Source: Acinetobacter sp. LoGeW2-3 (GTDB lineage: Bacteria > Pseudomonadota > Gammaproteobacteria > Pseudomonadales > Moraxellaceae). Taken from it: a stretch of DNA of 64,000 nucleotides. Location of the stretch: assembly GCF_002688565.1 (NCBI RefSeq), contig NZ_CP024011.1, positions 2,666,001 through 2,730,000 on the forward strand. The letters run 5' to 3'. The number at the start of each line of letters is the position of its first letter. Position 1 is the first letter of the stretch. The notes beneath the pieces are model-generated. The model did not search any database. It saw only the letters and a list, made by a program, of their open reading frames with translations, and had not been told where the DNA came from. Position numbers and translations under genes: made by a program. Below are positions 6,851 through 21,748 of the stretch, one piece after another.

Positions 6851-7903
6851 TCAAGCTGCAAATAACGGACTAAAACCATGCTTACGCAATAATTTCCTGT
6901 ACATGCTGGAACTACGGTCGGCGGGGAAATGTGCTTCCAACGATAAGTCGAGAGGCAAATACTCTGGCTTTTGATTTTCGACAATCATACGGTCTTCTTC
7001 AAAGATTTTTAAGTTAAAGTCATACGCATCTTCAACCGGTAGATCTTTGTCATAATTCCGACAGATAGGAGCAAACAGGCGAGTGGTACTTGCAGTCATC
7101 GGTGAAGCCGCATTCATAATCACCTGTTTGGCATCTTCTGGGAAATGAATGGTGAGTGTTGCCGTAAATGGCACACTGATTTCAAAATGTCGTAGCCATT
7201 TAAAATTTTCTGCACCCCGTTGATCTAGCCCAATCGGGTAACGTCCAACAGTACTGACATAATCTGCTGCAAAACCGTAATCCGTTTCATAGGTTTTATA
7301 ATCAGGTACTTCAGCATTATCTGGATCACCAAAAGTATCTGGATGGACCCAGGCAAAATGTGCGACATCAATAAAACCTTCCAGCTGACGACCCGCAAAG
7401 CATTTAATGTCCACGATTGGGCAGACCAGTTGCTGATAATCAGGATCTTCCCAATAAGGCATATACGGAATATTCGGTTCCGCATTTTTATCCGCCAGTA
7501 GAGAACACCAGATCAAGCCATATTTTTCTACTGAGGCATAGGTTTTTAGATGGAATCGATCAGAGATCTTGTGGTCAGGATGGGCGGGAATACGGTTGCA
7601 TTTTCCTTCGGCACCGAAGCGCAAACCATGATAAGGACAGACCACACCTTGGCCGTCATTTTTGCCCAGACTCAGCGCCACCCCACGATGCGGACAGGCA
7701 TCTTTGGCAACAATCACTTCATCGCCCATTTTATAAATCACTAAGGGCATATCCAAAAGCATAGTGCCCATCGGCTGCTCTGTGACTTCACGTGCCAGTG
7801 CGACTGGATACCAGTATTTTGCCAGCAAGTGCCAGTCATGTTCAGAAAATGTCATATGAACTGGCAAGTCTGGGTTATGGGTGAGGATCGTTTTGCTATT
7901 CAT
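6851..7903 (-). CDS. Rieske non-heme iron oxygenase, phthalate/VanA/NdmA-type (copy 1)
   Basis: About 350 residues. The Rieske 2Fe-2S site is C71-x-H73-x16-C90-x2-H93; the mononuclear iron ligands are H183 and H188 in FIDVAHFAWVH, with D305 as the likely third ligand (numbering from the upstream ATG at 7906). Size and C-terminal layout match the monooxygenase branch that includes vanillate O-demethylase, TsaM and the methylxanthine N-demethylases NdmA/B. ATG 7903 has GAGG at good spacing. No ferredoxin or reductase gene is nearby, so electrons must come from elsewhere. The 168-base gap to the LysR gene upstream allows co-transcription. Substrate inferred only from context (purine cluster). 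Confidence 0.85.
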   Translation of the reverse strand: MNSKTILTHNPDLPVHMTFSEHDWHLLAKYWYPVALAREVTEQPMGTMLLDMPLVIYKMGDEVIVAKDACPHRGVALSLGKNDGQGVVCPYHGLRFGAEGKCNRIPAHPDHKISDRFHLKTYASVEKYGLIWCSLLADKNAEPNIPYMPYWEDPDYQQLVCPIVDIKCFAGRQLEGFIDVAHFAWVHPDTFGDPDNAEVPDYKTYETDYGFAADYVSTVGRYPIGLDQRGAENFKWLRHFEISVPFTATLTIHFPEDAKQVIMNAASPMTASTTRLFAPICRNYDKDLPVEDAYDFNLKIFEEDRMIVENQKPEYLPLDLSLEAHFPADRSSSMYRKLLRKHGFSPLFAA

Positions 7904-8070
7904 CATGGCCTCAAATTAGTCTGCTTTTAATGACTATAGAACAAGGACCCATTCACTGAAATTAGAGAAATCTGGACAATGTATTAAGAAAATTAGAACA
8001 GCTAAACGGCATGCCCAGTCACAAGCGTGTTTTCGCTTAAACCTGAGATTTAGGTGATCTAAGCCATCAT

Positions 8071-9015
8071 TTATCCCGCCAATTCCTGATAGAGTTGATT
8101 TTTAAGTTGTTCCATCTGCTCAATAATGTGTTTAATCATGAGTTGTGATGCACGGGAAATCTGGCGTTTCGGTGCCACGCAAAGTGCGATAGTCAAAGGA
8201 CGTACACCTTTTTCGGTAATGGGTTTGAAAATCAGTTCATCACGCTGTAGCTCGGGATAGACATCCAGATAACTTAAGATGCCAATCCCAGTATTGGCCT
8301 TAATCATACTGTTCATCAAACGAATATCATTCGATTCTGTTTTTCGTGCAGGTATAAATTTGTGGTGTTTATAAATTGCCTGTACATAGTCATGCACAAT
8401 CAGCGGTTCTGAGGGAATAAAGTGGTTGTCATTGAGCGTATCCGAAAAATAAATCTTTTCAGCATATGCCAGTGGATGTTGTTTGGACATCACAAAACCC
8501 AATGGCAATTCAAGGAAATGTAATACCTCAAGCTGATGATGGGCTTTTGGATTCATAATGAGTCCAAAATCCAGTTCGGCATCCATGATTTTTCGGGCAA
8601 CCACTTCACTGTCAGCCACCCGAATATTGAAATTGATCCAGGGATACTGTTCATACATATGCTGCAGCGACTGCATGACAAAACCCTCACTCAAAGCAGC
8701 AATCAGCCCGAATTCGATACTGCCACGCTTTAGCCCCTGAATTTCATCAAAGCGGATACAGGTCTGCTGGAATTCCTTTTGCCATTTCAGAATATCAGCA
8801 TACAGCATCTCACCCGCCAAAGTCAGTTTCAGCCCATTCGGCAAGCGCTCGAACAGATCAATGCCCAGTTCTTCTTCAGCCAGGGCAATTTGACGATGTA
8901 CTGCGGATACCGAGATAAACAGCTGATCCGCGGCCTTACGCAAACTGCCGCTTTTCGCTACCGCAATAAAGTATTCGGAAAAACGTGAGAAAGGAGTATT
9001 CAACAATTTGCTCAA
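8071..9015 (-). CDS. LysR-family regulator of the Rieske/purine cluster
   Basis: 314 residues. The winged-helix DNA-binding domain is at about 8-68 (FSEYFIAVAKSGSLRKAADQL, cut here at helix ends) and a LysR substrate-binding domain follows. It lies between the two oxygenase genes and is divergent from the second, the usual place for a pathway-specific activator. The intergenic region on the divergent side contains an inverted repeat (9118-9132) that could be its site. Ligand unknown; a purine-like inducer is an inference. Confidence 0.85.
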   Translation of the reverse strand: MSKLLNTPFSRFSEYFIAVAKSGSLRKAADQLFISVSAVHRQIALAEEELGIDLFERLPNGLKLTLAGEMLYADILKWQKEFQQTCIRFDEIQGLKRGSIEFGLIAALSEGFVMQSLQHMYEQYPWINFNIRVADSEVVARKIMDAELDFGLIMNPKAHHQLEVLHFLELPLGFVMSKQHPLAYAEKIYFSDTLNDNHFIPSEPLIVHDYVQAIYKHHKFIPARKTESNDIRLMNSMIKANTGIGILSYLDVYPELQRDELIFKPITEKGVRPLTIALCVAPKRQISRASQLMIKHIIEQMEQLKNQLYQELAG

Positions 9016-9117
9016 GCCAGATCTACCTGTATTTAAAATTCACTCAATCGCTTTATGCGAGTTTTATGCCAAAGCAGTAAGATGAAGCTCAATAAAATCA
9101 GGTGTTTCAGCCATACG

Positions 9118-9155
9118 TTCTAATTTTTAGAATGATTTATACCAAACATTCTAAT
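9118..9155. promoter_or_regulatory. Candidate LysR operator
   Basis: TTCTAATTTTTAGAA (9118-9132) is an inverted repeat with 6-base arms, followed 15 bases on by ATTCTAAT (9148-9155), a further half-site. It lies between the LysR gene and divergent Rieske copy 2, where such regulators bind. No footprint evidence. Confidence 0.4.
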
Positions 9156-9271
9156 AGACGAAATATCAAAAAAACCAGTAATTTCAATCCTAAATAAGTG
9201 GGACGTTAACTCAACTCGGTCACGTTCCAAGGCATTAAAACGATTCAGAATTTTGCAGAAAAAGGTTTGAT

Positions 9272-10327
9272 ATGAACGCTATTCCAATGATCAATGTATT
9301 TAGCAAACCATGCTACAGCCAGTTTGACGATCAGGATTGGGAGATTCTGGCGCATCATTGGTATCCGGTTGCACGTATTCAGGACGTCACCGAAAAGCCG
9401 CAGCAAGTCACTTTGCTGGACGTCAAACTGGCAATCTATAAAACTGAAAGTGGTGCGATTCATCTGGTCCGTGATATCTGTCCGCACCGCGGGGTCCCAC
9501 TGAGTAAGGGATGGGTTTCTGGAGAAAGCATCGTCTGTCCATATCATGGCCTCGAATATAATGAGCGCGGGAAGTGCGTCAAAATTCCGGCACAACCTGA
9601 ACTGACCAAAATTTCTGACCGTTTTTCACTGACCAAATTCCCAGTGGTAGAAAAATACGGTCTGGTGTGGACCAGCCTGTTTAGTCGTGATGAAAGCACA
9701 GCGAATTTCCCCGTACTGGAAACTTGGGATACAACAGAGCATCAATCCATCCTGCCGCCGTTTGTAGATATTGCTGGTTCCAGCGGTCGTCAATTAGAAG
9801 GCTTTATCGATGTCGCACATTTTGCTTTTGTGCATCACAATGCCTTTGCCGATCGAGACAATCCGGTGGTGCCAAAATACAGTACCGAACGTACACCGTA
9901 TGGCCTGCATACCGAATATGTCAGCAATGTCAGCAACTATCCGCATGGCTTGCAACATCTGGCACCAGAAGGCTTTTTATGGAAACGTGTGTTTGATGTC
10001 TATCCGCCATTTTCAGCGACTTTAACTGTACATTTTCCAAATGACGGCATCTTAAAAATTCTGAATGCTTGCTGTCCGGTGTCACATAACAAAACCCGAC
10101 TGTTTGTACCACTGACCCGTAATTTTGATACCACGGGTGATTTACAGGCGGTTTACGATTTCAATGCGCAAATCTTTGCTGAAGATCAGGAAATGGTAGA
10201 AAGCCAAAAACCGGAAGAACTTCCGCTGGATATTTCTATGGAAGCACATTTTGAAGCTGACCGTTCATCGACGACTTATCGACGTATATTAGCCGAAATG
10301 GGATTAAGTAAACGCTATGTTGTTTAA
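9272..10327 (+). CDS. Rieske non-heme iron oxygenase, phthalate/VanA/NdmA-type (copy 2)
   Basis: 351 residues. Rieske ligands C70-x-H72 and C89-x2-H92; mononuclear iron ligands H183 and H188 in FIDVAHFAFVHH, and a late acidic AEDQEMVES segment that should hold the aspartate. Paralogous to the copy at 6851 with the same architecture but clearly diverged, so the two may act on different positions or substrates, as NdmA and NdmB do. AAAAAGG precedes the ATG. Divergent from the LysR gene; upstream of the deaminase and nucleoside importer. No partner reductase is encoded nearby. Confidence 0.85.
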   Translation: MNAIPMINVFSKPCYSQFDDQDWEILAHHWYPVARIQDVTEKPQQVTLLDVKLAIYKTESGAIHLVRDICPHRGVPLSKGWVSGESIVCPYHGLEYNERGKCVKIPAQPELTKISDRFSLTKFPVVEKYGLVWTSLFSRDESTANFPVLETWDTTEHQSILPPFVDIAGSSGRQLEGFIDVAHFAFVHHNAFADRDNPVVPKYSTERTPYGLHTEYVSNVSNYPHGLQHLAPEGFLWKRVFDVYPPFSATLTVHFPNDGILKILNACCPVSHNKTRLFVPLTRNFDTTGDLQAVYDFNAQIFAEDQEMVESQKPEELPLDISMEAHFEADRSSTTYRRILAEMGLSKRYVV

Positions 10328-10437
10328 TGTAAGCGAGTGAGTTCAATTTAATATAGGCTGCATTTAAATAATATGATTTTAAGTGCAGTTTATGTTTTTA
10401 ATATGATTTTATTTAAAATAAATTTTGGAATGATTAA

Positions 10438-10923
10438 ATGAGTCGTCCGAATCAGGAACAGATATTAAATTTTTTGAAACTCTCCAATGAGGTTGGACGT
10501 CGTGCGACCGAGCTAGGGCATCATCCTTTTGGAGCTGTACTGGTCGCGCCAGATCATGAAACGGTACTGTTGACCCAGTGCAATATCGATACGGTCAATC
10601 ATGCCGAATCAACTTTAGCCCGTATAGCAGCGACCAATTATCCCGCGGATTATTTATGGCAATGTACGCTATATACCGCTGTAGAACCTTGCTGCATGTG
10701 TGCTGGAACCATTTATTGGGCCAATATTGGCCGTGTGGTGTATGGCATGTTGGAAGAACGACTGCTGGAATATACCGGCAATCATCAGGAAAACCCGACC
10801 ATGAGTGTCAGCTCAGAATATGTGTTTAGTCATGGACAAAAGGATATTGATCTGATTGGTCCAGTACCTGAGATTGAAGCGGAAATCATCAACTTACAGC
10901 AGCAGTTCTGGCAAAATCGATAA
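10438..10923 (+). CDS. CDA-fold nucleobase/nucleoside deaminase (guanine-deaminase-like)
   Basis: 161 residues, a Zn-dependent cytidine-deaminase-fold enzyme. The catalytic HAE motif is H55-A-E57 and the zinc cysteines are C85 and C88 in EPCCMC. Length and order resemble the small bacterial guanine deaminase GuaD (about 156 residues in Bacillus subtilis) and tRNA adenosine deaminase relatives. The loop between HAE and PCxxC is AT-rich in sequence choice but intact. GGA lies 8 bases before the ATG. Followed by its own terminator. The substrate is probably an aminopurine; that is inference from fold and neighbours. Confidence 0.8.
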   Translation: MSRPNQEQILNFLKLSNEVGRRATELGHHPFGAVLVAPDHETVLLTQCNIDTVNHAESTLARIAATNYPADYLWQCTLYTAVEPCCMCAGTIYWANIGRVVYGMLEERLLEYTGNHQENPTMSVSSEYVFSHGQKDIDLIGPVPEIEAEIINLQQQFWQNR

Positions 10924-10938
10924 ATATTTATCTAAACT

Positions 10939-10968
10939 AAAATCCCATTTTTATAATGGGATTTTTTA
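10939..10968 (+). terminator. Intrinsic terminator after the deaminase gene
   Basis: AATCCCATT and AATGGGATT arms within A- and T-rich flanks, ending in a T run. Confidence 0.8.
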
Positions 10969-11151
10969 TTTTATAGCGTAATAATTTTAAATATAAACGC
11001 CCAATTTAATTGCATCAAATATTAAAAATTGCACTTATTTAAAACATATTTATTTAATATTAAAAAGCAATCTATGTTTATAAATTTAAAAATACGAAAT
11101 CTGAGCTTTTATTTAAAAGGAATAAATTAAATCCATGGTTTCTTAAACAAG

Positions 11152-11168
11152 TTGGAATAGTTATTGCT
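11152..11168 (+). promoter_or_regulatory. Candidate sigma-54 promoter of the nucleoside importer operon
   Basis: TTGGAATAGTTATTGCT keeps the invariant GG (11154-55) and GC (11166-67) separated by 10 bases, and the TTGCT of the -12 box; the -24 box has AAT in place of CAC. It is about 90 bases before the preferred start of the binding-protein gene. Sigma-54 control would fit a nitrogen-scavenging role. Confidence 0.5.
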
Positions 11169-11253
11169 AATTATAAATAGAACCGACTGAACTCATCTGA
11201 GCCAAGTTTTAATGAATGTGCATGTGCACACGTACAAAAAGAGCGGAAAAAAA

Positions 11254-12342
11254 ATGAAAGATAAAAAGACCTTTAAAACTGGATTCAAAACACTCATGGG
11301 GATGTTGCTTGCAGGTGGTCTGATGGCAACATCAATGACTCATGCACAGGATAAAGCCGCGTTTGTATATATTGGTCCAACAAGTGACCATGGCTGGACC
11401 TATTCACATGATCAGGGTCGAATCAAAACTGAGAAAGCGCTGGCAGGCAAGTATAAAACTTCTTATATCGAGAATGTCCCTGAAACTGCCGATGCAGAGC
11501 GTGTGATCCGTAACCTTGCGCAGCAGGGCAATAAAGTCATTTTTGCGACTTCATTCGGCTATATGAATGCCATGGAGAAAGTGTCCAAGCAATTCCCGAA
11601 TACAGTTTTTATGCATGCGACAGGTTATAAGCAAAGTAAAAACCTAGGCGTCTATGACGTACGTACCTATGAGGGTGCCTATATGCTGGGTGTGGTTGCA
11701 GGCCAGAAAACCAAAAACAATACACTCGGCGTTGTAGCATCATTCCCAATTCCAGAAGTGGTGCGTAACATCAATGCCTATACCTTGGGTGCACAAAGCG
11801 TGAATCCAAAAGTAAAAACCAAAGTGATCTGGGTCAATTCTTGGTTTAACCCAGGCAAAGAGCGTGATGCGGCTTTAGCACTCATTGCACAAGGTGCAGA
11901 TGTGCTCATGCAAAATACTGACTCTCCAGCTGTAGTACAAGCTGCTGAGCAGAAAGGTGTTTACGCTTTTGGCTGGGATTCAGATATGAGCAAGTTTGGT
12001 CCTAAAGCGCATCTGGCGGCTTCGGTACTACATTGGGAAAAAATCTATACACCAGTAATGACGCAAGTCAGCAATAAAACCTGGAAACCAAGTGCACTCT
12101 GGTATGGCGTAAAACAAAAAGCGGTTGATATTGAAAACTTTGGTCCAATGGTTACTGCGGATGAGAAGAAAAAAGCTTTAGCTGCACGTGATGCGCTTCT
12201 AAAAGGCACTATCCATCCATTTAGCGGTCCACTCTACAAGCAAGATGGTTCATTGGTGATTGCTAAAGGTAAGCTGGATGATGCGACATTAGGCAAAATG
12301 AACTACTACGTGAAAGGTGTAGAAGGCGCATTACCAAAATAA
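11254..12342 (+). CDS. BMP-family (PnrA/Med-type) nucleoside-binding ABC lipoprotein/periplasmic protein
   Basis: About 362 residues. The N-terminus has a basic region, a hydrophobic core and an AxA cleavage-type end (THA before QDK), a type I signal peptide. The mature part starts with the BMP-family signature KAAFVYIGPTSDHGWTYSHD, cut at 20 residues here. PnrA/BmpA-type proteins bind purine nucleosides or bases for import. The ATG at 11254 gives a normal signal length and has GAGCGG upstream; the frame also opens at 11212. First gene of a four-gene importer (binding protein, ATPase, two permeases) plus the amidohydrolase. Confidence 0.88.
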   Translation: MKDKKTFKTGFKTLMGMLLAGGLMATSMTHAQDKAAFVYIGPTSDHGWTYSHDQGRIKTEKALAGKYKTSYIENVPETADAERVIRNLAQQGNKVIFATSFGYMNAMEKVSKQFPNTVFMHATGYKQSKNLGVYDVRTYEGAYMLGVVAGQKTKNNTLGVVASFPIPEVVRNINAYTLGAQSVNPKVKTKVIWVNSWFNPGKERDAALALIAQGADVLMQNTDSPAVVQAAEQKGVYAFGWDSDMSKFGPKAHLAASVLHWEKIYTPVMTQVSNKTWKPSALWYGVKQKAVDIENFGPMVTADEKKKALAARDALLKGTIHPFSGPLYKQDGSLVIAKGKLDDATLGKMNYYVKGVEGALPK

Positions 12343-12449
12343 TGACAACAATAAGCGGCACTTTGATCTAAAAACAGGTTTGGAGACTCATCTGACACCT
12401 TACCTCAAGTGAGATGAGTCATCCAGCCACATAAAACAGGGCACTGACA

Positions 12450-14051
12450 ATGAACCAAACACAAAATCTGTCTGCGCATTCGCCCAAGCTGAATACAGTT
12501 TCAAATCGAGAAGTTCCACGTCTGGAACTGATTAATATCTGCAAAAGCTATAATTCTCTTAAGGCCAATGACCAGATTCATTTAACTGTTTATCCAGGAC
12601 AGATTCACGCCATTTTAGGTGAAAACGGTGCAGGCAAAAGTACCCTGATGAAAATCATCTATGGCGCGGTCAAAGCAGATCAGGGCCAAATAATCTGGAA
12701 TGGTAAAGAAGTTAAAATTGACAGTCCCTCGATGGCGAGAAAACTCGGGATCGGCATGGTCTATCAGCATTTCTCCCTGTTTGAGACACTGACTGTCGTT
12801 GAAAATATTTTATTGGGACTCGATGAAAAAATAGATCGATCTGAACTCAGTAAAAAGATTATTGATGTTTCTGAACAATACGGTTTACCTGTCGATCCAC
12901 GACGAGAAGTGCATTCCTTATCTGTGGGTGAACGCCAGCGTGTCGAAATCATTCGTTGCCTGTTACAGCATCCTAAGCTGATTATTCTGGATGAACCCAC
13001 TTCTGTGCTAACACCACAGGCCGTACGACAATTATTTAAAACCTTACGACTGCTGTCATCTCAAGGCGTATCCATTCTCTATATCAGCCATAAGCTGCAT
13101 GAAATCAAAGAACTCTGTGATGAAGCAACCATTTTGCGTAATGGATGCGTGACTGGCAATGTCGATCCACGAGAAAAATCCATCAGTGAACTGGCACGGC
13201 TGATGATTGGTCGGGATTTACCAACCTATGTACGCGCAGAATATCAAGGTACGCCTGAAACCTGCTTCGAAGTGAAAAACCTCAGCTTTCAATCCGATGA
13301 TCCTTTTAGCGTTTCTTTAAAAAATATCAATCTCAGCGTGCAAGCTGGGGAAATTATGGGCATTGCCGGTATTTCAGGAAATGGTCAGGCTGAACTGCTG
13401 TCTTTGCTTTCAGGTGAAGCACTGACCAAAAACGGCATGCTGTATCTGGAACAGCAGGACATTACTGCACTGAGTGCTGGTCAACGCCGCGATGTTGGAC
13501 TGGGCTTTGTTCCAGAAGAACGTTTAGGTCGTGGTGCCGTACCGAATATGACCCTGTCACAAAATGCGCTACTAACGGCCTATCGCCAAAAATTTACCCA
13601 ATGGGGGCTGATTAAATTTCAGAATATTCAGTCTTTCGCAGAAAAAATTATCGAAAAATTTGGCGTGAAAGCCAGTGGTGCATCAGCAGAAGCCCGCTCT
13701 TTATCAGGCGGTAATCTACAGAAATTTATTGTCGGCCGTGAAATTCTACAAAACCCGAAATTTCTGATCGTGGCTCAGCCTACCTGGGGTGTGGACGTCG
13801 GTGCTTCCATGTTTATCCGCCAGACACTCATTGACCTATCCCGTCAGGGGGTCGGTATTTTGGTAATTTCTGAAGAACTGGAAGAGCTGTTTGAGATGAG
13901 CGATCGCATTTGTGTACTTGCCAATGGGGAATTATCCGATCCTGTACCGACTCATGAAACCAATGCGGAAAGCATCGGTTTACTCATGTCGGGTATCCAG
14001 CAGCATGCAACACCCTCTGCAACAACAGAAGAGGAACGTATTCATGCTTAA
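12450..14051 (+). CDS. Nucleoside ABC importer ATPase, two fused ABC domains
   Basis: 533 residues with tandem ABC domains, as in NupO/RbsA/YufO-type ATPases. Domain 1 has Walker A GENGAGKST (about 57-65), signature LSVGERQRVEI and Walker B LIILDEPTS. Domain 2 has a degenerate Walker A (GISGNGQAE), signature LSGGNLQKF and a weak Walker B (FLIVAQPTWG, E replaced by Q), so the second site probably hydrolyses ATP poorly, which is common in this family. AGGG precedes the ATG. Powers the permeases encoded directly downstream. Confidence 0.92.
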   Translation: MNQTQNLSAHSPKLNTVSNREVPRLELINICKSYNSLKANDQIHLTVYPGQIHAILGENGAGKSTLMKIIYGAVKADQGQIIWNGKEVKIDSPSMARKLGIGMVYQHFSLFETLTVVENILLGLDEKIDRSELSKKIIDVSEQYGLPVDPRREVHSLSVGERQRVEIIRCLLQHPKLIILDEPTSVLTPQAVRQLFKTLRLLSSQGVSILYISHKLHEIKELCDEATILRNGCVTGNVDPREKSISELARLMIGRDLPTYVRAEYQGTPETCFEVKNLSFQSDDPFSVSLKNINLSVQAGEIMGIAGISGNGQAELLSLLSGEALTKNGMLYLEQQDITALSAGQRRDVGLGFVPEERLGRGAVPNMTLSQNALLTAYRQKFTQWGLIKFQNIQSFAEKIIEKFGVKASGASAEARSLSGGNLQKFIVGREILQNPKFLIVAQPTWGVDVGASMFIRQTLIDLSRQGVGILVISEELEELFEMSDRICVLANGELSDPVPTHETNAESIGLLMSGIQQHATPSATTEEERIHA

Positions 14052-14092
14052 AACCGTATTCAAACAATTAATACCTTTGGGAGGATGAGCAC

Positions 14093-15190
14093 ATGCATTT
14101 ACTCGAACCGCGTGAACATCCATCACAATTGATGAAATGGTTATCACCAGTTATTGCCTTGGCGGCTATGCTGGTCGTTGGCAGTATTTTATTTTTAATG
14201 CTGGGGATTAGCCCCGCAAAAGCCATGTATGTGTTTTTTATTGAACCGCTGATGACCTCTTATGGCTGGAGTGAACTGGCAGTTAAAGCTGGACCATTAA
14301 TTCTGATCGCACTGGGCTTAGCCGTTGGCTTCCGTGCCAAATTATTCAATATCGGAGCTGAAGGTCAGCTGATCATGGGTGCCATTTTTGGTGGTGGGAT
14401 CGCACTATTATTTCATGAGCAAACAGGCTGGTGGATTCTCCCGCTGATGATTGTTATGGGTGCCATTGGCGGTGCTGTATGGGGTGCAATTCCTGCTTTA
14501 TTAAAGACTCATTTTAATGCTGAAGAAACGCTAACCACCTTGATGATGAATTATGTGGCGCTGTTTGTATTGCTGTATCTGGTCAATGGGCCATGGCGCG
14601 ATGCTGAAGGCATGAATTTCCCGCAAACCGTGATGTTTAGTGATGGTGCGCTGTTGTCAATGATTCTGGAAGGGACACGCGTCAATGCTTCGATTTTTAT
14701 TACGATTGTGGCTGTGATTCTATTTTGGGTGTTTATGCGTAAAAGCCTGACAGCATTCAAACTGGAAGTCAGCGGGCAGGCACCTTTAGCCGCTAAATAT
14801 GCAGGCTTTTCATCTTCCAAAGCGATTTGGCTCAGTTTGGTTATTTCCGGAATGATGGCAGGCATTGCCGGGATTTGTGAAGTGGCAGGTCCGATTGGAC
14901 AGCTCAATCCAAACCTGTCACCAGGTTATGGTTATGCCGCGATTATTGTAGCTTATCTCGGACGTTTAAACCCAATTGGGATCGTACTTTCTGGTTCCTT
15001 CATGGCGCTCATCTACCTAGGTGGGGAAATGGCACAAATGCAATTACAACTCCCAGTTGCGATTACCGGAATTTTCCAAGGTTTATTACTGTTTTTCCTG
15101 TTGGCATCTGATGCCTTGATTGAAAACCGCTACCGCTTTGCCAAAAAACGTGTGATCCCTGCAGTTGAAACTGCCTCGACTCATGCTTAA
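14093..15190 (+). CDS. Nucleoside ABC importer permease 1
   Basis: 365 residues, about 9-10 membrane segments, of the BPD_transp_2 (RbsC/NupP/YufP-like) family. Family signature FNIGAEGQLIMGA is visible at about residues 81-93, and the C-terminal region GPIGQLNPNLSPGYGY is typical of purine nucleoside permeases. The strong GGGAGGA eight bases upstream fixes the start. It pairs with the next gene to form a heterodimeric channel in the inner membrane. Confidence 0.92.
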   Translation: MHLLEPREHPSQLMKWLSPVIALAAMLVVGSILFLMLGISPAKAMYVFFIEPLMTSYGWSELAVKAGPLILIALGLAVGFRAKLFNIGAEGQLIMGAIFGGGIALLFHEQTGWWILPLMIVMGAIGGAVWGAIPALLKTHFNAEETLTTLMMNYVALFVLLYLVNGPWRDAEGMNFPQTVMFSDGALLSMILEGTRVNASIFITIVAVILFWVFMRKSLTAFKLEVSGQAPLAAKYAGFSSSKAIWLSLVISGMMAGIAGICEVAGPIGQLNPNLSPGYGYAAIIVAYLGRLNPIGIVLSGSFMALIYLGGEMAQMQLQLPVAITGIFQGLLLFFLLASDALIENRYRFAKKRVIPAVETASTHA

Positions 15191-15211
15191 TAGAATAAGA
15201 GGAAGAAAAAA

Positions 15212-16132
15212 ATGGCTATAGAAATCACTGCAATACTTGCAGGAACAATCGCCGCAGCAACGCCTCTGATCTTTGCAGGCTTAGGGGAGTTGGTATCACA
15301 ACGGACTGGTGTGATTAATTTAGGTGTGGAAGGCATGATGCTGGTCGGCGCGATTGCTGGTTTTGCTTTCGCTGCCCAATATGAGGCCAGTGTGTTTAGC
15401 GCTTTATTGATCGGTGGACTGGCGGGGATGCTCATGGCATTGCTGTTTGCTTTTTTCACTTTATCCCTGAGCACTAATCAGTCCGCATGCGGTTTAGCTT
15501 TAACTATTTTTGGTCTCGGTATTTCTGCTTTCTTGGGACAAAACTATGTCAGCATGGCTTTACCAGGGTTAAGCAACTGGAATATTCCTGTATTAGCCGA
15601 TATTCCATTCATTGGTCCAATCTTGTTCCAACAAAACTATGTGGTTTATCTGTCGATACTGGCATTTTTCGCGATCTGGTTTGTGCTGACTAAAACCCGT
15701 TTAGGTCTGCTCTTAAAGGCAGTCGGAGAGTCGCCTGAAAGTGCCCATGCCATGGGATATAACGTGCTCGCAATCCGCTACGGCGCTGTACTATTTGGCG
15801 GACTCATGGCAGGGATTGGTGGTGCCTTCTTATCGACGGTTTATACCCCGATGTGGATTGAAAATATGGTCGCAGGTCGTGGCTGGATCGCAATTGCTTT
15901 AGTAGTTTTTGCTGTGTGGAAGCCAACCCGACTTATGCTGGGTGCTTATCTGTTTGGTGGGGTGACGATTCTACAATTTCATGCACAAGCACTTGGGATT
16001 AAAGTCCCCAATGAATTCTTAGCAGCGCTGCCGTATCTGGCAACTATTGTGGTTCTGGTGGTGATTTCCCGCGACAAGAAACTTTTAAAGATGAATTTGC
16101 CAGCGTCATTAGGCAAAACTTTCGTGCCTTAA
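15212..16132 (+). CDS. Nucleoside ABC importer permease 2
   Basis: 306 residues, 8-9 membrane segments, second BPD_transp_2 permease (NupQ/YufQ-like). The signature NLGVEGMMLVGA near residues 35-46 matches the paired permease. It starts 21 bases after permease 1 with AGAGGA upstream, so the two are co-translated in one operon. Substrate specificity is set by the binding protein upstream; purine-like nucleosides or bases are inferred. Confidence 0.92.
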   Translation: MAIEITAILAGTIAAATPLIFAGLGELVSQRTGVINLGVEGMMLVGAIAGFAFAAQYEASVFSALLIGGLAGMLMALLFAFFTLSLSTNQSACGLALTIFGLGISAFLGQNYVSMALPGLSNWNIPVLADIPFIGPILFQQNYVVYLSILAFFAIWFVLTKTRLGLLLKAVGESPESAHAMGYNVLAIRYGAVLFGGLMAGIGGAFLSTVYTPMWIENMVAGRGWIAIALVVFAVWKPTRLMLGAYLFGGVTILQFHAQALGIKVPNEFLAALPYLATIVVLVVISRDKKLLKMNLPASLGKTFVP

Positions 16133-16164
16133 AGCGCATTAATGAAAAGATGATGTAGAGCAAA

Positions 16165-17550
16165 ATGAAAATATTAGCAGCAGCCTATGTGCTGACCATG
16201 AATCATCAAAATGAATGTATCAAAAATGGGGCAGTGTTGCTTGATGGAGACAAAATCAAAGCCGTTGGCACCAAAGCTGAACTGACCCAGCAATATCCCA
16301 ATGTGATGGTACATGATTATCCTAAAGCCTTGCTCATGCCTGGCTTGATCAATACGCACTGTCATTCTGGGCTCTTAAGGGGTACTGCGGAAGGACTGCC
16401 TGTCTGGGACTGGTTGCAGCAGTTTATTGATCCTATGCATCGTGTTCTGCTACCCGGAGATGCCAAGGCTGCATCCTATCTCTGTTATGCAGAAGCATTA
16501 CTCTCCGGTACCACAACCATCGTAGATATGTGGCGTTATATGGATGGCAGTGCTGAGGCGGTAAAAGACTTAGGAATTCGTGCTGTTCTGGTGCCTTATG
16601 TAGCTGAGCATCCAGACCATGACTATTTTGAAACCCTAAAAAGCAATGAGGCATTGATTAATCGCTGGCATCAACAAAATCATGGGCAAATTCAGGTTTG
16701 GGTCGGTTTAGAACATTTATTTTATGCAGAACCGCATGCGCTAAAACGGATTCAAAGCTTATGTCAGGATTATCAGACGGGTTTTCATACTCACAGTAAT
16801 GAGAGTCAGTTTGATGTTCAGGAAAACTTACGCCGTCATGGGGCACGTCCCATCCAAACCCTGGAACACCTAGGTTTGTTAGATTTACCGCAAACCCTCC
16901 TTGCACATTGTGTCTGGGCAGATTCGACTGAAATTCAAATTATGAAACAACACAATGTCGGCGTTGCCCATAATCCAATTTCCAATATGAAACTGGCTTC
17001 GGGTGCAGCGCCTGTGCTGGAGATGCTCAAACAGGGAATTGCAGTAGGCTTGGGTACAGATGGTGAAAAGGAAAATAATAATCTGGATATGTTTGAAGAA
17101 ATGAAAACGGCGTCCTTATTGGCGAAATTCTCTACTTTAGATGCCGCAGCGTTGGATTCATTATCTATTTGTCAGATGGCGACGCGCACTGGTGCAAAAG
17201 CCTTAGGTATGCAGAATCAGATTGGCAGTCTTGAATTAGGTAAATTAGCAGACATCATTGCTGTGAATATAGCGACACCACGTATGACCCCATTGGTCGA
17301 TGAAGGTCGACTCTTCAATTTATATACCAATCTGGTGCATGCGGTTCAGGGACAGGATGTGGTGATGACCATGGTCGGCGGTAAAATTGTGGTTGAAGAT
17401 GGAAAATTGCTGAATGCAGATTTGCAAAGCTTAATTGATGAAGTGAATCGAGTGACGCCTTTACTCTTTGAACGTCGTGACACATGGATGGCGCAAAAAG
17501 GAAAAGCCGTCAATGAGTTAAATCGGAATACTGTTGAGGAAACTGAATAA
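16165..17550 (+). CDS. Amidohydrolase deaminase (MtaD/8-oxoguanine deaminase/AtzA-TrzN superfamily)
   Basis: 461 residues, cytosolic TIM-barrel metal hydrolase. Metal ligands: H65-x-H67 (NTHCHSG), a later HTHSNES histidine (about 212), LAHCVW (about 247) and the catalytic Asp in GTDGEKENN (about 301). This subtype deaminates purine or pterin-like rings (MtaD, 8-oxoguanine deaminase) or dechlorinates triazines. It sits 33 bases after the second permease, so it should act on what the importer brings in. The exact substrate cannot be read. A second, unrelated deaminase (10438) lies in the same cluster. Confidence 0.88.
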   Translation: MKILAAAYVLTMNHQNECIKNGAVLLDGDKIKAVGTKAELTQQYPNVMVHDYPKALLMPGLINTHCHSGLLRGTAEGLPVWDWLQQFIDPMHRVLLPGDAKAASYLCYAEALLSGTTTIVDMWRYMDGSAEAVKDLGIRAVLVPYVAEHPDHDYFETLKSNEALINRWHQQNHGQIQVWVGLEHLFYAEPHALKRIQSLCQDYQTGFHTHSNESQFDVQENLRRHGARPIQTLEHLGLLDLPQTLLAHCVWADSTEIQIMKQHNVGVAHNPISNMKLASGAAPVLEMLKQGIAVGLGTDGEKENNNLDMFEEMKTASLLAKFSTLDAAALDSLSICQMATRTGAKALGMQNQIGSLELGKLADIIAVNIATPRMTPLVDEGRLFNLYTNLVHAVQGQDVVMTMVGGKIVVEDGKLLNADLQSLIDEVNRVTPLLFERRDTWMAQKGKAVNELNRNTVEETE

Positions 17551-18422: not shown

Positions 18423-18872
18423 TTAATAGGTTTTATAAGGCAGGAATTTGCCAGACAATACCACATTGACTCGGTCACCATTCGGATTTTCCTCACGCTG
18501 AATGTCCATGCTGAAGTCAATCGCACTCATAATGCCGTCACCAAATTCTTCATGAATCAGCTCCTTAATGGTGGAGCCATATACATTCACCACTTCATAC
18601 CAGCGGTAAATCAGAGGATCTGTAGGAACGCTGGTTGGTAAAGAGCCTTTATAAGGCACAATTTGCAGCCATGCGACAGCTTCATCACTCAGGTCAAAAA
18701 TCTGACCAATTTTCTCTGCCTGTTCTTTATTAAATGCCATTTGCCCAAGACATGCAGCCGTTACCCATTCTTTAGAAAGACCAATTTCCTTGGCGACATC
18801 TGCCCATTTAATTGACTTTAAAACTTTCGCTGAAATGATCATGTCAGTTACTTGTTGACGATGGGTAATCAT
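18423..18872 (-). CDS. cynS: Cyanate hydratase (cyanase)
   Basis: 149 residues, near the family length (E. coli CynS 156). It converts cyanate and bicarbonate to ammonium and CO2, giving a nitrogen source and detoxification. The N-terminal helical DNA-binding-like domain is followed by the catalytic domain with all three active-site residues: R90 (YRWYE), E93 and S116 (DGIMSAIDF), each six positions before E. coli R96, E99 and S122. No cynT or cynX is next to it. A sigma-54-like promoter and an inverted repeat lie upstream, which suggests nitrogen control. Confidence 0.96.
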   Translation of the reverse strand: MITHRQQVTDMIISAKVLKSIKWADVAKEIGLSKEWVTAACLGQMAFNKEQAEKIGQIFDLSDEAVAWLQIVPYKGSLPTSVPTDPLIYRWYEVVNVYGSTIKELIHEEFGDGIMSAIDFSMDIQREENPNGDRVNVVLSGKFLPYKTY

Positions 18873-18922
18873 AAAAAATCTCCAGAATATTTTTAAAATA
18901 GATTTATGTGAAATTTCAACAA

Positions 18923-18955
18923 TGCAGTTCTCATGCCAACAATAGCTTTGGCATG
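18923..18955 (-). promoter_or_regulatory. Candidate sigma-54 promoter of cynS plus inverted repeat
   Basis: On the minus strand TGGCATGAGAACTGCA (18923-18938) has GG-N10-GC spacing, about 50 bases before cynS. It overlaps a perfect 8-base inverted repeat (18932-18939 and 18948-18955) that could be a regulator site or a second -24 element on the other strand. Confidence 0.5.
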
Positions 18956-19001
18956 AGGGTTAAATAAAAAATAAAGAATTGAATGATTTTTATATTATTT
19001 G

Positions 19002-19017
19002 TGGCACAGCTTTTGCT
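19002..19017 (+). promoter_or_regulatory. Sigma-54 promoter (-24/-12) of the formate/nitrite channel
   Basis: TGGCACAGCTTTTGCT matches the consensus TGGCAC-N5-TTGCW exactly, with GG-N10-GC spacing. Transcription should begin near 19028, giving a leader of about 135 bases that contains the two hairpins and terminator described next. Confidence 0.82.
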
Positions 19018-19033
19018 TCATTAACCACAAACG

Positions 19034-19122
19034 TGGCAATGGCGCCATAACACAAATTACCTGTTCTAATATTTAAGGCAACGACGCCTAAGGTTTAAAG
19101 GACCTTAGGCGTCGTTTTGTTT
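19034..19122 (+). promoter_or_regulatory. ANTAR-type antitermination leader (two hexaloop hairpins plus terminator)
   Basis: Hairpin P1 is TGGC-AATGGC-GCCA (19034-19047) and P2 is AGGC-AACGAC-GCCT (19076-19089). Both have six-base loops with A at position 1 and G at position 4, the known recognition features of ANTAR-domain antiterminators such as NasR and NasT. P2 shares bases with the 5' arm of a perfect 15-bp terminator (19080-19094 / 19102-19116) followed by a T-rich tract to 19122. Forming P2 would therefore prevent the terminator. The ANTAR protein itself is not in this window. Confidence 0.78.
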
Positions 19123-19162
19123 AAAGAACGGGTTCAGATTTAGAAATAATGAGGACGACCAT

Positions 19163-19972
19163 ATGGCATATCTTGCTCCTGCAGAATTTGCAAAAAAAGT
19201 AGTAGATGCTGGTGAAGCCAAGCTTCATATGGCAACGCGTGATGTTTTGATCCGTGCATTTATGGCGGGCGCGATTTTGGCCTTGGCAGCAGTATTTGCC
19301 ATCACTATCGCCGTTCAAACCGGGTCACCATTAATTGGTGCATTACTGTTCCCAGTCGGCTTCTGTATGTTGTATCTATTGGGCTATGACTTACTAACAG
19401 GGGTATTTGTACTAACACCACTGGCTTGGTTAGATAAACGACCTGGTGTCACATGGGCGCGTATTCTAAAGAATTGGGGTTTAGTATTTGCGGGTAACTT
19501 CACCGGTTGTTTAGTGGTAGCAGTACTGATGGCCGTGGTTTATACCATGGGTTTTGCAGCAGATCCGAATCCAGTCGGTGAAAAAATTGCCCATATTGGT
19601 GAAGATCGTACACTAGGTTATGCAGCTTATGGGTTGTCAGGCTGGATGACCATTTTTATCCGTGGCATGTTGTGTAACTGGATGGTGTCATTGGGCGTGA
19701 TTGGCGCCATGATGTCGACTACAGTGAGCGGTAAATTTATCGCGATGTGGATGCCAGTAATGCTGTTCTTTGCGATGGGCTTTGAACACTCTGTCGTGAA
19801 TATGTTCCTGTTCCCATTCGCCATGATGATGGGTGGTGACTTCTCGATTGCTGACTACTTCTTATGGAATGAACTTCCTGTCGCTTTGGGTAACTTAGTG
19901 GGCGGTTTATCTTTAACTGGTCTAGCGCTCTATACGACTCATGTTCGTACTGGTGCAAAAAAAGAATTTTAA
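19163..19972 (+). CDS. Formate/nitrite transporter family channel (NirC/FocA-like)
   Basis: 269 residues, six membrane segments, a pentameric FNT channel for small monovalent acids (nitrite, formate, hydrosulfide). The N-terminus (MAYLAPAEFAKKVVDAGEAK) and the membrane motifs are typical, with GNFTGC near residue 112 and NWMVSLG near 172 as the central re-entrant regions. The sigma-54 promoter and ANTAR-type leader upstream are those of nitrate/nitrite assimilation genes, so nitrite (or nitrate-derived nitrite) is the favoured substrate. A terminator separates it from the kinase-phosphatase gene 51 bases downstream. Confidence 0.9.
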   Translation: MAYLAPAEFAKKVVDAGEAKLHMATRDVLIRAFMAGAILALAAVFAITIAVQTGSPLIGALLFPVGFCMLYLLGYDLLTGVFVLTPLAWLDKRPGVTWARILKNWGLVFAGNFTGCLVVAVLMAVVYTMGFAADPNPVGEKIAHIGEDRTLGYAAYGLSGWMTIFIRGMLCNWMVSLGVIGAMMSTTVSGKFIAMWMPVMLFFAMGFEHSVVNMFLFPFAMMMGGDFSIADYFLWNELPVALGNLVGGLSLTGLALYTTHVRTGAKKEF

Positions 19973-19987
19973 TCATTCACCATTTTT

Positions 19988-20014
19988 AAAGGGATCAATT
20001 TGATCCCTTTTTGA
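19988..20014 (+). terminator. Terminator between channel and kinase-phosphatase genes
   Basis: Ten-base arms AAAGGGATCA/TGATCCCTTT with a 3-base loop and T run. The next start codon is only 10 bases after it, so it probably limits rather than blocks downstream expression. Confidence 0.75.
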
Positions 20015-20023
20015 GTTTTTAGC

Positions 20024-21748
20024 ATGAAAAAAATATTAAAAGTCAGTATTGGGCAATATTCTACTGCCGGGATTAAAGAGCAGAACCAGGATTTCTATGG
20101 CATATATCTGCCTGAAGGCCATGTGCTGAAGCAAAAAGGCATTGCTTGCGTCATGGCTGATGGGATTGGTAGCAGTAATGTCAGTCATATTGCCGCAGAA
20201 ACCGCTGTCGGCGGTTTTTTATCTGACTATTATTCTACTTCGGATGCCTGGAGCATGCAGACTTCCGCAGAACGGGTAATCCGCGCAACTAACTCATGGT
20301 TGTATGCGCAGACCCAGCAAAGTCAGGGACGTTTTGATAAAGACCGGGGCTATGTATGCACCTTATCTGCACTGATTTTAAAACAGCAACAAGCTCATAT
20401 TTTTCATGTGGGGGACAGCCGGATCTACCGAATCCGTAATGGAGAAATTGAATTACTCACCCACGACCATCGGGTCTGGTTATCTTCAAGAGAGCATTAT
20501 CTTAGCCGTGCTTTAGGTGCCGATTATCGGATAGAGATCGATTACCAGAGCATTGAACTAAAAGAAAAAGATATCTTTTTACTCATGACTGATGGGGTTT
20601 ATGAATTTGTCACAGATCAGCAATTATTAGATCTAACTTTAGCAGATGAAGATTTAAATCATCTTGCCAAAACTTTAGTTGAACAGGCCTTAAAACAGGG
20701 CAGTGATGATAACTTAAGTCTTCAGGTGCTCCATGTAGAGCAATTACCTGAACTAGATCAGTTTTATATTCAGCAGGATTATGTATTTCCACAACAGCTC
20801 AGCAAAGGTGAAGTTTTTGAAGACTATGTGATTGATAAAATATTGCACCAAAATCATCGCAGCTGCCTGTATTTGGCACATGATTGCCAGCAGCAGCCAT
20901 TGGTCATAAAAACTTTGGGGGTTGATTTACAGCAAGATGAAAATGCCGTAGAGCAGTTTCAACTCGAAGATTGGGTATCTAAACGTCTAAAACATGAAAA
21001 TCTGATGCAGTGTTACGGACATAACACAGAGAAAAAATATTTATTCCAATGCTATGAATATTTACAGGGAGAAACCCTGGATCGCTGGCTGCATCGCCAG
21101 AAAAAACCTTTACAACTCGAAGACATTTTACCCATTCTGCAACAAACGGCTTTGGCTTTAAATGCAATGCATCGACTGGAGATGCTGCACCAAGATGTTC
21201 GTCCAGAAAATATCATGGTCTTAAACAATGAAAACAGCATTAAAATTAAGTTGATTGATTATGGTTCAACGGCGGTACGTGGCCTGGCAGAAGTTAATCC
21301 ACAGCATGCCAATCGTCCCTTAGGCACATTAGCCTTTATGGCACCGGAGTATTTTATTGATGCTGCACCTTCAGTTCGCTCTGATCAGTTTTCTCTGGCA
21401 GTGATGAGTTATTATTTGCTTACTCGACAATTACCGTATGGTACCGATCTGGTGCGTTGCCAAAGCTTAAGCCAACAGAAAAAAGTTCAATATCATTCTA
21501 TTCAGAAATATCGGCCTGATTTACCCATATGGTTAGATAAAATCTTAGGCCAAGCGCTGAGTATTGAACCGACACATCGTTTTGAGGCATTGTCTGAACT
21601 CATTCATAATCTGGCGCATCCTTCCAAACAGTTATTGAAGACTAAACCAGCAGCCATCATCGAACGTGATCCTTTACGTTTTTGGCAAATAAGTTGCGCC
21701 GTATTAGGGCTATTATTTCTTTTGAGTATTGCTTGGCCATTTATTTAA
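20024..21748 (+). CDS. Bifunctional PP2C phosphatase - Ser/Thr protein kinase, membrane-tailed
   Basis: 574 residues. Residues about 1-240 are a PP2C (PPM) phosphatase with metal motifs VMADGIG, HVGDSR, LMTDGVYE and DDNLS. Residues about 270-530 are a Hanks-type kinase: VIK lysine, catalytic HQDVRPEN in place of HRDLKPEN, DYG in place of DFG, and an APE-like GTLAFMAPEYF. A single membrane segment ends the protein (about 553-572). This fusion commonly lies in nitrate/nitrite assimilation loci of Pseudomonas-type bacteria, and here follows the FNT channel. Substrates are unknown; control of the channel or of assimilation enzymes is inference. Confidence 0.88.
   Translation: MKKILKVSIGQYSTAGIKEQNQDFYGIYLPEGHVLKQKGIACVMADGIGSSNVSHIAAETAVGGFLSDYYSTSDAWSMQTSAERVIRATNSWLYAQTQQSQGRFDKDRGYVCTLSALILKQQQAHIFHVGDSRIYRIRNGEIELLTHDHRVWLSSREHYLSRALGADYRIEIDYQSIELKEKDIFLLMTDGVYEFVTDQQLLDLTLADEDLNHLAKTLVEQALKQGSDDNLSLQVLHVEQLPELDQFYIQQDYVFPQQLSKGEVFEDYVIDKILHQNHRSCLYLAHDCQQQPLVIKTLGVDLQQDENAVEQFQLEDWVSKRLKHENLMQCYGHNTEKKYLFQCYEYLQGETLDRWLHRQKKPLQLEDILPILQQTALALNAMHRLEMLHQDVRPENIMVLNNENSIKIKLIDYGSTAVRGLAEVNPQHANRPLGTLAFMAPEYFIDAAPSVRSDQFSLAVMSYYLLTRQLPYGTDLVRCQSLSQQKKVQYHSIQKYRPDLPIWLDKILGQALSIEPTHRFEALSELIHNLAHPSKQLLKTKPAAIIERDPLRFWQISCAVLGLLFLLSIAWPFI

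Follow-up and report, generated by a model that had tools for sequence, protein, structure and literature searches.

What compound would be handled by a gene cluster that brings together two Rieske oxygenases (here RieA and RieB), a LysR regulator, a CDA-fold deaminase, an ATP-binding cassette (ABC) importer with a BMP-type binding protein, and an amidohydrolase? The nine genes in question span nucleotides 6851 to 17550 of a 64,000-nucleotide stretch of Acinetobacter sp. LoGeW2-3 (the window), which corresponds to positions 2666001 to 2730000 of contig NZ_CP024011.1 in a genome of 3.36 Mb. A preliminary description of the window had listed this gene set and proposed purine uptake, Rieske oxidation, and deamination; every gene that it named is an open frame in its place with the domains ascribed to it. 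We read the cluster, with a probability of about 0.82, as a purine-nitrogen scavenging unit of the HpxD type that feeds the urate pathway without a molybdenum enzyme. In the pathway that we propose, the BMP-type ABC importer would take in a purine base (guanine- or adenine-like), the CDA-fold enzyme and/or the amidohydrolase would strip off its exocyclic amino group, leaving xanthine or hypoxanthine, and RieA and RieB would hydroxylate the purine ring with O2 and the electrons of a reductase encoded elsewhere, yielding urate with no molybdenum enzyme. HpxO, HIU hydrolase, OHCU decarboxylase, PuuE allantoinase, allantoicase, and ureidoglycolate lyase would finish the breakdown towards ammonia, with the HpxR-like LysR protein as the likely regulator. 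What computation establishes is family membership, co-occurrence, gene linkage, and motif conservation; the reactions, the imported substrate, and the regulation are inferred.

The first line of evidence is the family placement of the oxygenases. RieA shares 57.5% identity over 341 aa with Klebsiella pneumoniae HpxD, annotated in the database as “molybdenum cofactor-independent xanthine hydroxylase subunit HpxD”; for RieB the figure is 47.5% to the same protein and 50% to RieA, and between the LysR protein and K. pneumoniae HpxR it is 47% over 300 aa. HpxD was located via plasmid records, after a class-wide search with RieA (369 genomes) had returned distant matches in four genomes besides its own and no HpxD-like match. 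In a 50-row tree (two rows, one shortened and one duplicate, removed beforehand; three of the distant loci L068–L098 as outgroups), RieA falls within the HpxD clade (support 100/100) alongside proteins from Klebsiella, Pantoea, Pseudomonas, Komagataeibacter, Rhizobium, and Novosphingobium. RieB forms a separate Acinetobacter clade (100/100), joined by an Acidithiobacillus protein (99/99) and adjoining HpxD, and VanA-like proteins fall outside the HpxD/RieB grouping. The HpxD/HpxR precedent invoked in the preliminary description is thus borne out, and both oxygenases lie outside the O-demethylases with which it had considered that they might group. The Rieske CxH/CxxH and mononuclear-iron motifs are intact in the alignment, the iron ligands being sought at the positions that we take to be the customary ones. 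By sequence, then, RieA is an HpxD-type oxygenase and RieB a divergent HpxD paralogue; we use this label rather than “HpxDE system” because no paired HpxE reductase is found here.

The same comparisons bear on a different chemistry raised at the outset, in which the Rieske enzymes would strip N-alkyl groups from methylpurines or N6-substituted adenines, in the manner of the Ndm enzymes or of cytokinin breakdown, with deamination to follow. Sequence comparison places NdmA and NdmB among the closest solved structures to the Rieske proteins, deaminase genes are adjacent, and in a fold search with the predicted RieB structure (pLDDT 74), which informs on fold only, NdmA comes next after saxitoxin-pathway Rieske enzymes as the best matches. 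However, NdmA and NdmB share only 28 to 31% identity with RieA and RieB, as compared with 47 to 58% for HpxD, and branch apart in the tree; a forced RieB+NdmA/B clade is rejected, though weakly (approximately unbiased (AU) test, p = 0.038). Given also that RieB tracks HpxO and often adjoins guaD or urate genes, as detailed below, we consider N-dealkylation very improbable.

The second line of evidence is co-occurrence across 99 genomes drawn evenly from the genus Acinetobacter, in which RieB was scored as intact at ≈75% identity or more and XdhB was the sole xanthine dehydrogenase model searched. Intact RieB is found in 61 genomes, a RieA-type gene in 33 (one with a stop), HpxO in 64, and an XdhB-type xanthine dehydrogenase in 10. 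HpxO is present in all 61 intact-RieB genomes, and intact RieB in 61 of the 64 HpxO genomes (Fisher p = 1e-23), the others being G036, which has XdhB, G028, with a shortened RieB, and G108, with neither; where HpxO occurs without XdhB, RieB accompanies it in 52 of 54 cases. As a phylogenetic control, a quick gyrB tree of 98 of the 99 genomes (G030, with no gyrB match, was left out) gave 23 independent RieB-contrasting pairs, in which HpxO was concordant in 21, discordant in 0, and not different in 2 (averages over random pairings; p ≈1e-6). In just 29 of the 61 genomes do the two genes lie no more than 30 kb apart; 11 have them at a greater distance on a shared contig, and in 21 (some of these drafts) each is on a contig of its own, which argues that their association is not mere hitch-hiking. 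Matches to the importer's binding protein and to the CDA-fold deaminase fall within the RieB genomes: a match to the BMP protein occurs in 25 of the 99 genomes, all with RieB and HpxO (the sole copy being a shortened one in three, G009, G024, and G090), and a match to the CDA protein in 16, all with RieB and a BMP match. Three of these genomes, G061, G097, and G116, hold a more distant pair of full-length BMP (63–64% identity) and CDA (46–47%) on contigs other than that of RieB.

The third line is gene order around RieB, counted in 48 named Acinetobacter loci over fetched stretches of up to 21 kb, some shorter (L067 holds a RieB fragment only); 31 of 80 loci at ≤26% identity (L068–L098) and the Acidithiobacillus locus L063 were omitted. 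A LysR gene accompanies RieB in 45 of the 48 loci, a BMP gene in 16, the amidohydrolase in 15, and the CDA gene and a second Rieske gene in 12 each, so that the expectation that these genes stay together elsewhere holds for LysR and in part for the remainder. The grouping exceeds chance, because LysR is so nearly constant and because BMP and CDA matches are confined to RieB genomes. One or more urate or allantoin genes lie within the fetched stretch in 32 loci (puuE in 30, hpxO in 15). The strongest individual example comes from Acinetobacter sp. NCu2D-2: on a plasmid of 310 kb, the gene order of the window continues into hpxO, allantoicase, ureidoglycolate lyase, and an outer membrane channel gene, followed beyond transposase genes by uraH, uraD, and puuE. 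In LoGeW2-3 the urate genes named in the proposed pathway, HpxO included, form a cluster of their own (L124) at ≈987–995 kb, 1.7 Mb from the window along the same contig. The closest named RieB relatives in the genome collection are those of Acinetobacter sp. HR7 (98%) and A. schindleri (94%). Taken together, the placement of RieA in the HpxD clade and the tracking of HpxO by RieB support purine uptake, oxidation, and deamination as the probable function of the cluster, as the preliminary description had supposed.

Why two oxygenases should be kept is addressed by a refinement that is compatible with the purine-scavenging reading: RieA and RieB could both be purine hydroxylases that split the work between C2 of hypoxanthine and C8 of xanthine, or one of them could serve an imported modified base such as 8-oxoguanine or isoguanine. 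Of the genomes with RieB, 30 retain both paralogues and 31 have RieB alone. A RieB copy is immediately adjacent to guaD, the guanine deaminase gene whose product is xanthine, in 16 of the 61 RieB genomes, and 14 of these are among the 31 with RieB alone; moreover, an 8-oxoguanine-deaminase-type gene is found in 4 of the 48 loci, and the single member checked scores above the family cut-off. Speaking against a split, PMC7373994 describes Klebsiella hpxDE as involved in the oxidation both of hypoxanthine to xanthine and of xanthine to uric acid. We hold such a division of labor as a tentative possibility, somewhat short of even odds.

The importer and the two deaminases bear on which purine might enter the pathway. 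The genes are listed in Table 1.

Table 1. Genes of the predicted purine-scavenging cluster, in window coordinates
Gene product	Coordinates	Strand	Basis
RieA, HpxD-clade Rieske oxygenase, predicted (hypo)xanthine hydroxylase	6851..7906	-	Pfam Rieske + VanA_C; 57.5% to HpxD; tree
LysR regulator, HpxR homologue, divergent from RieB	8071..9015	-	47% to HpxR; TTG start
RieB, second, divergent HpxD-family Rieske oxygenase	9272..10327	+	Pfam Rieske + VanA_C; 47.5% to HpxD
CDA-fold deaminase (predicted, nucleobase or nucleoside)	10438..10923	+	Pfam dCMP_cyt_deam_1; zinc motif
BMP/PnrA-type periplasmic binding protein, predicted purine binder	11212..12342	+	match to AtzT 6pi5
ABC importer ATPase, two nucleotide-binding domains	12450..14051	+	Pfam ABC_tran, two stretches
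ABC importer permease 1	14093..15190	+	Pfam BPD_transp_2
ABC importer permease 2	15212..16132	+	Pfam BPD_transp_2
Amidohydrolase, putative deaminase, TRZ/ATZ, cog0402 type, probably free-base substrate	16165..17550	+	Pfam Amidohydro_1

The BMP protein is closest to AtzT (6pi5; 408 bits) and scores 345 bits to 3s99. According to PMC6834077, AtzT was purified with guanine bound, and guanine (0.11 uM) is the tightest of the compounds tested; ammeline (0.36 uM), 2-hydroxyatrazine (2.2 uM), and adenine (2.5 uM) are also bound. Of the nine AtzT residues named in that paper, six (S97, F98, E165, N169, W194, and N218) are identical in the BMP protein, which differs by Y45W, T139A, and N220D; for the direct guanine contacts the tally is five of seven (S97, F98, E165, W194, and N218), with Y45W and N220D altered. 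The kinship with AtzT also admits a reading in which importer and deaminases would scavenge an s-triazine, a pterin, or another azine-type compound and the Rieske genes would be neighbors by history, since AtzT binds ammeline and 2-hydroxyatrazine, the amidohydrolase is TRZ/ATZ-like, and a cyanate lyase gene lies 0.9 kb off. We judge this improbable, if marginally less so than N-dealkylation: guanine is the tightest of the AtzT ligands tested, RieB and HpxO are present in each of the 25 genomes with a BMP match, and just 2 of the 48 loci, the two nearest, show a cyanate lyase close to the cluster within the fetched stretches. The neighboring part of the window (18423–21748) holds, besides this cyanate lyase, a formate/nitrite transporter and a protein that combines a PP2C phosphatase domain with a protein kinase domain.

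Within the purine-scavenging reading, the CDA protein conserves an HAE and PCxxC zinc motif that is invariant in 11 aligned sequences; its structure model is too poor to use (pLDDT 48). It is ruled out as the sole guanine deaminase, as a canonical guaD is present in 94 of the 99 genomes, that of LoGeW2-3 included. The amidohydrolase falls below the cut-off of each of the 25 best of 40 NCBIfam families compared, with 143 bits to guanine deaminase TIGR02967 (cut-off 375; guaD lies elsewhere in this genome) and 219 bits to 8-oxoguanine deaminase NF006055 (cut-off 532). Its nearest solved relative is the MTA/SAH deaminase 4f0r, but the Glu of the 4f0r WPTEG motif, which we take to bind ribose, is a His here. 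That replacement suggests that the substrate is a free base. The two enzymes may extend the range of the pathway to further amino-purines instead of acting on plain guanine.

The electron donor is a further point on which the locus departs from expectation. There is no reductase gene among the 17 open reading frames of at least 120 aa at 2113–23260 around the cluster, in agreement with the preliminary description. A dedicated reductase elsewhere in the genome was sought and rejected, the homologues reaching just 33 to 41%; the best HpxE/VanB-type homologue (41% identity) sits beside another Rieske gene, 2.4 Mb off along the contig. A close HpxE-type reductase, defined as at least 55% identical to the A. 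populi protein (the next class reaching ≤41%), is present in 8 of the 99 genomes, all RieB-positive, with its gene flanked by or adjacent to the Rieske genes; two of these genomes, G076 and G113, have it beside RieB, and no RieA was found there. An HpxE-type gene is seen in 4 of the 48 loci, and the genes of A. nectaris, A. pollinis, A. populi, and A. qingfengensis run LysR, RieA, reductase, RieB. The A. baylyi locus L055 holds LysR and RieB, with neither RieA nor HpxE in the stretch fetched. A different arrangement was read in two Burkholderiaceae records among several matching, from Paraburkholderia (L151:7959–10382) and Caballeronia (L256:4959–7373), in which an HpxD-family gene is directly followed by a rubredoxin and then an FAD-dependent oxidoreductase; the Paraburkholderia HpxD-family protein is 56% identical to RieB. 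Because of this adjacency and because a rubredoxin gene is present in each of the 23 Acinetobacter genomes searched, rubredoxin might be guessed at as the donor, although rubredoxin is common and no purine gene is annotated beside the Burkholderiaceae genes, so that the support is thin. A joint reading, in which RieB would be fed by a general rubredoxin/rubredoxin reductase of the alkane-oxidation type with no HpxE of its own, and RieA/RieB, importer, and deaminases would also handle modified bases (8-oxoguanine and isoguanine) besides guanine, seems to us unlikely though worth stating.

Other domain combinations were noticed in these comparisons. In Acidithiobacillus sp. YTS05 (L063:6232–8928), a Rieske oxygenase is fused to flavodoxin, FAD, and NAD domains, with a LysR gene between the fusion and a RieB relative; this fusion is perhaps a self-contained diflavin-driven oxygenase. 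P0007–P0011 have the same architecture, P0012 (perhaps a fragment) is without the NAD part, and the database protein P0013 carries in one chain what look like two tandem Rieske oxygenases. In the database proteins P0014, P0017, P0019, and P0023, an OHCU decarboxylase domain is fused to Rieske and VanA_C domains (two that were compared are ≈30% identical to RieA and RieB), and these fusions link the broader oxygenase type to the urate pathway.

Several findings weigh against the purine-scavenging reading. The branch that joins RieB to HpxD has support of 95/79, slightly under the tool's star mark. RieB occurs in 9 of the 10 XdhB genomes, so that RieB and xanthine dehydrogenase are not strict alternatives, and G082 and G089 (L125 and L126) carry RieA without RieB or HpxO. 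No urate gene lies in the fetched stretch of 16 of the 48 loci, and 53 of the 61 RieB genomes, that of LoGeW2-3 included, are without a close HpxE. In the BMP protein, N220D may shift specificity; with guaD so widespread, the two extra deaminases are unneeded for plain guanine and may act on another compound. Furthermore, the 99-genome sample and the 48 named loci have species in common and do not count as independent.

In comparison with known systems, the cluster resembles Klebsiella hpxDE-hpxR-hpxO in its HpxD-clade oxygenase, its divergent HpxR-type LysR gene (divergent from RieB, but on the same strand as RieA), and the presence of HpxO and urate genes in the genome. It differs from the Klebsiella locus read, which has one HpxD, in having two HpxD-family oxygenases, no close HpxE, and urate genes 1.7 Mb off, and in the added BMP-type ABC importer and two extra deaminases. 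AtzT of Pseudomonas sp. ADP and Brucella 3s99 belong to the same BMP subfamily as the window protein, which is tied to purine oxidation genes and not to those for cyanuric acid. NdmA and NdmB have in common with RieA and RieB the Rieske oxygenase fold and, as we predict, purine substrates, but lie outside the HpxD clade. The neighborhoods of xanthine/uric acid (NMT1) riboswitches likewise feature Rieske-type and 2-oxoglutarate (2OG) oxygenases, amidohydrolases, tsx, and tadA-like genes according to PMC7373994; unlike these, the window has no such riboswitch, nor any other, at Rfam gathering scores. Two NMT1 riboswitches occur in L024 (A. haemolyticus) at 1622–1681 and 1997–2048, flanked by a 2OG oxygenase gene and an NMT1-type transporter operon and about 8 kb distant from RieB; L024 is the one of seven related loci scanned with any. 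RieB copies at 84 to 85% identity lie near 2OG-Fe(II) oxygenase genes in L149 (A. baumannii plasmid pE47_002), L128, and L139, and in 41 plasmid records the best RieB match is at 80 to 90% identity.

The core is thus a known kind of system, of which the cluster is a variant by its doubled oxygenase, its importer with additional deaminases, and its lack of a reductase. New here are the two HpxD paralogues, the predicted ABC importer for purines and the two accessory deaminases that come with it, and the want of a close HpxE in most RieB genomes. The statement in the preliminary description that no such system had been described is too strong for the HpxD-type core, but no description of such a core joined to a BMP importer and a pair of accessory deaminases was found in the literature searched, in which the primary HpxDE papers were not covered. 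The abstract of the 2009 HpxDE paper reportedly names Acinetobacter among the species with homologues. In the text of PMC10117892 on the Acinetobacter urate module, figures aside, “Rieske”, “aromatic ring”, and “dioxygenase” never occur. A table in PMC8055839 assigns “ndm” weakly to K. oxytoca, Erwinia, and Acinetobacter from the coffee berry borer, and the genes so called may be of the HpxD family; the Acinetobacter sp. S54 of that work is our locus L050.

These findings offer a likely function for genes annotated “aromatic ring-hydroxylating dioxygenase” in 61 of the 99 sampled Acinetobacter genomes and caution that such genes are not to be taken for caffeine or aromatic-compound genes. They make three questions testable, namely the electron donor, the reason for two oxygenases, and the purine served by the importer and extra deaminases. 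Finally, they offer a way by which 52 of the 64 HpxO-bearing genomes could produce urate without an XdhB-type xanthine dehydrogenase.

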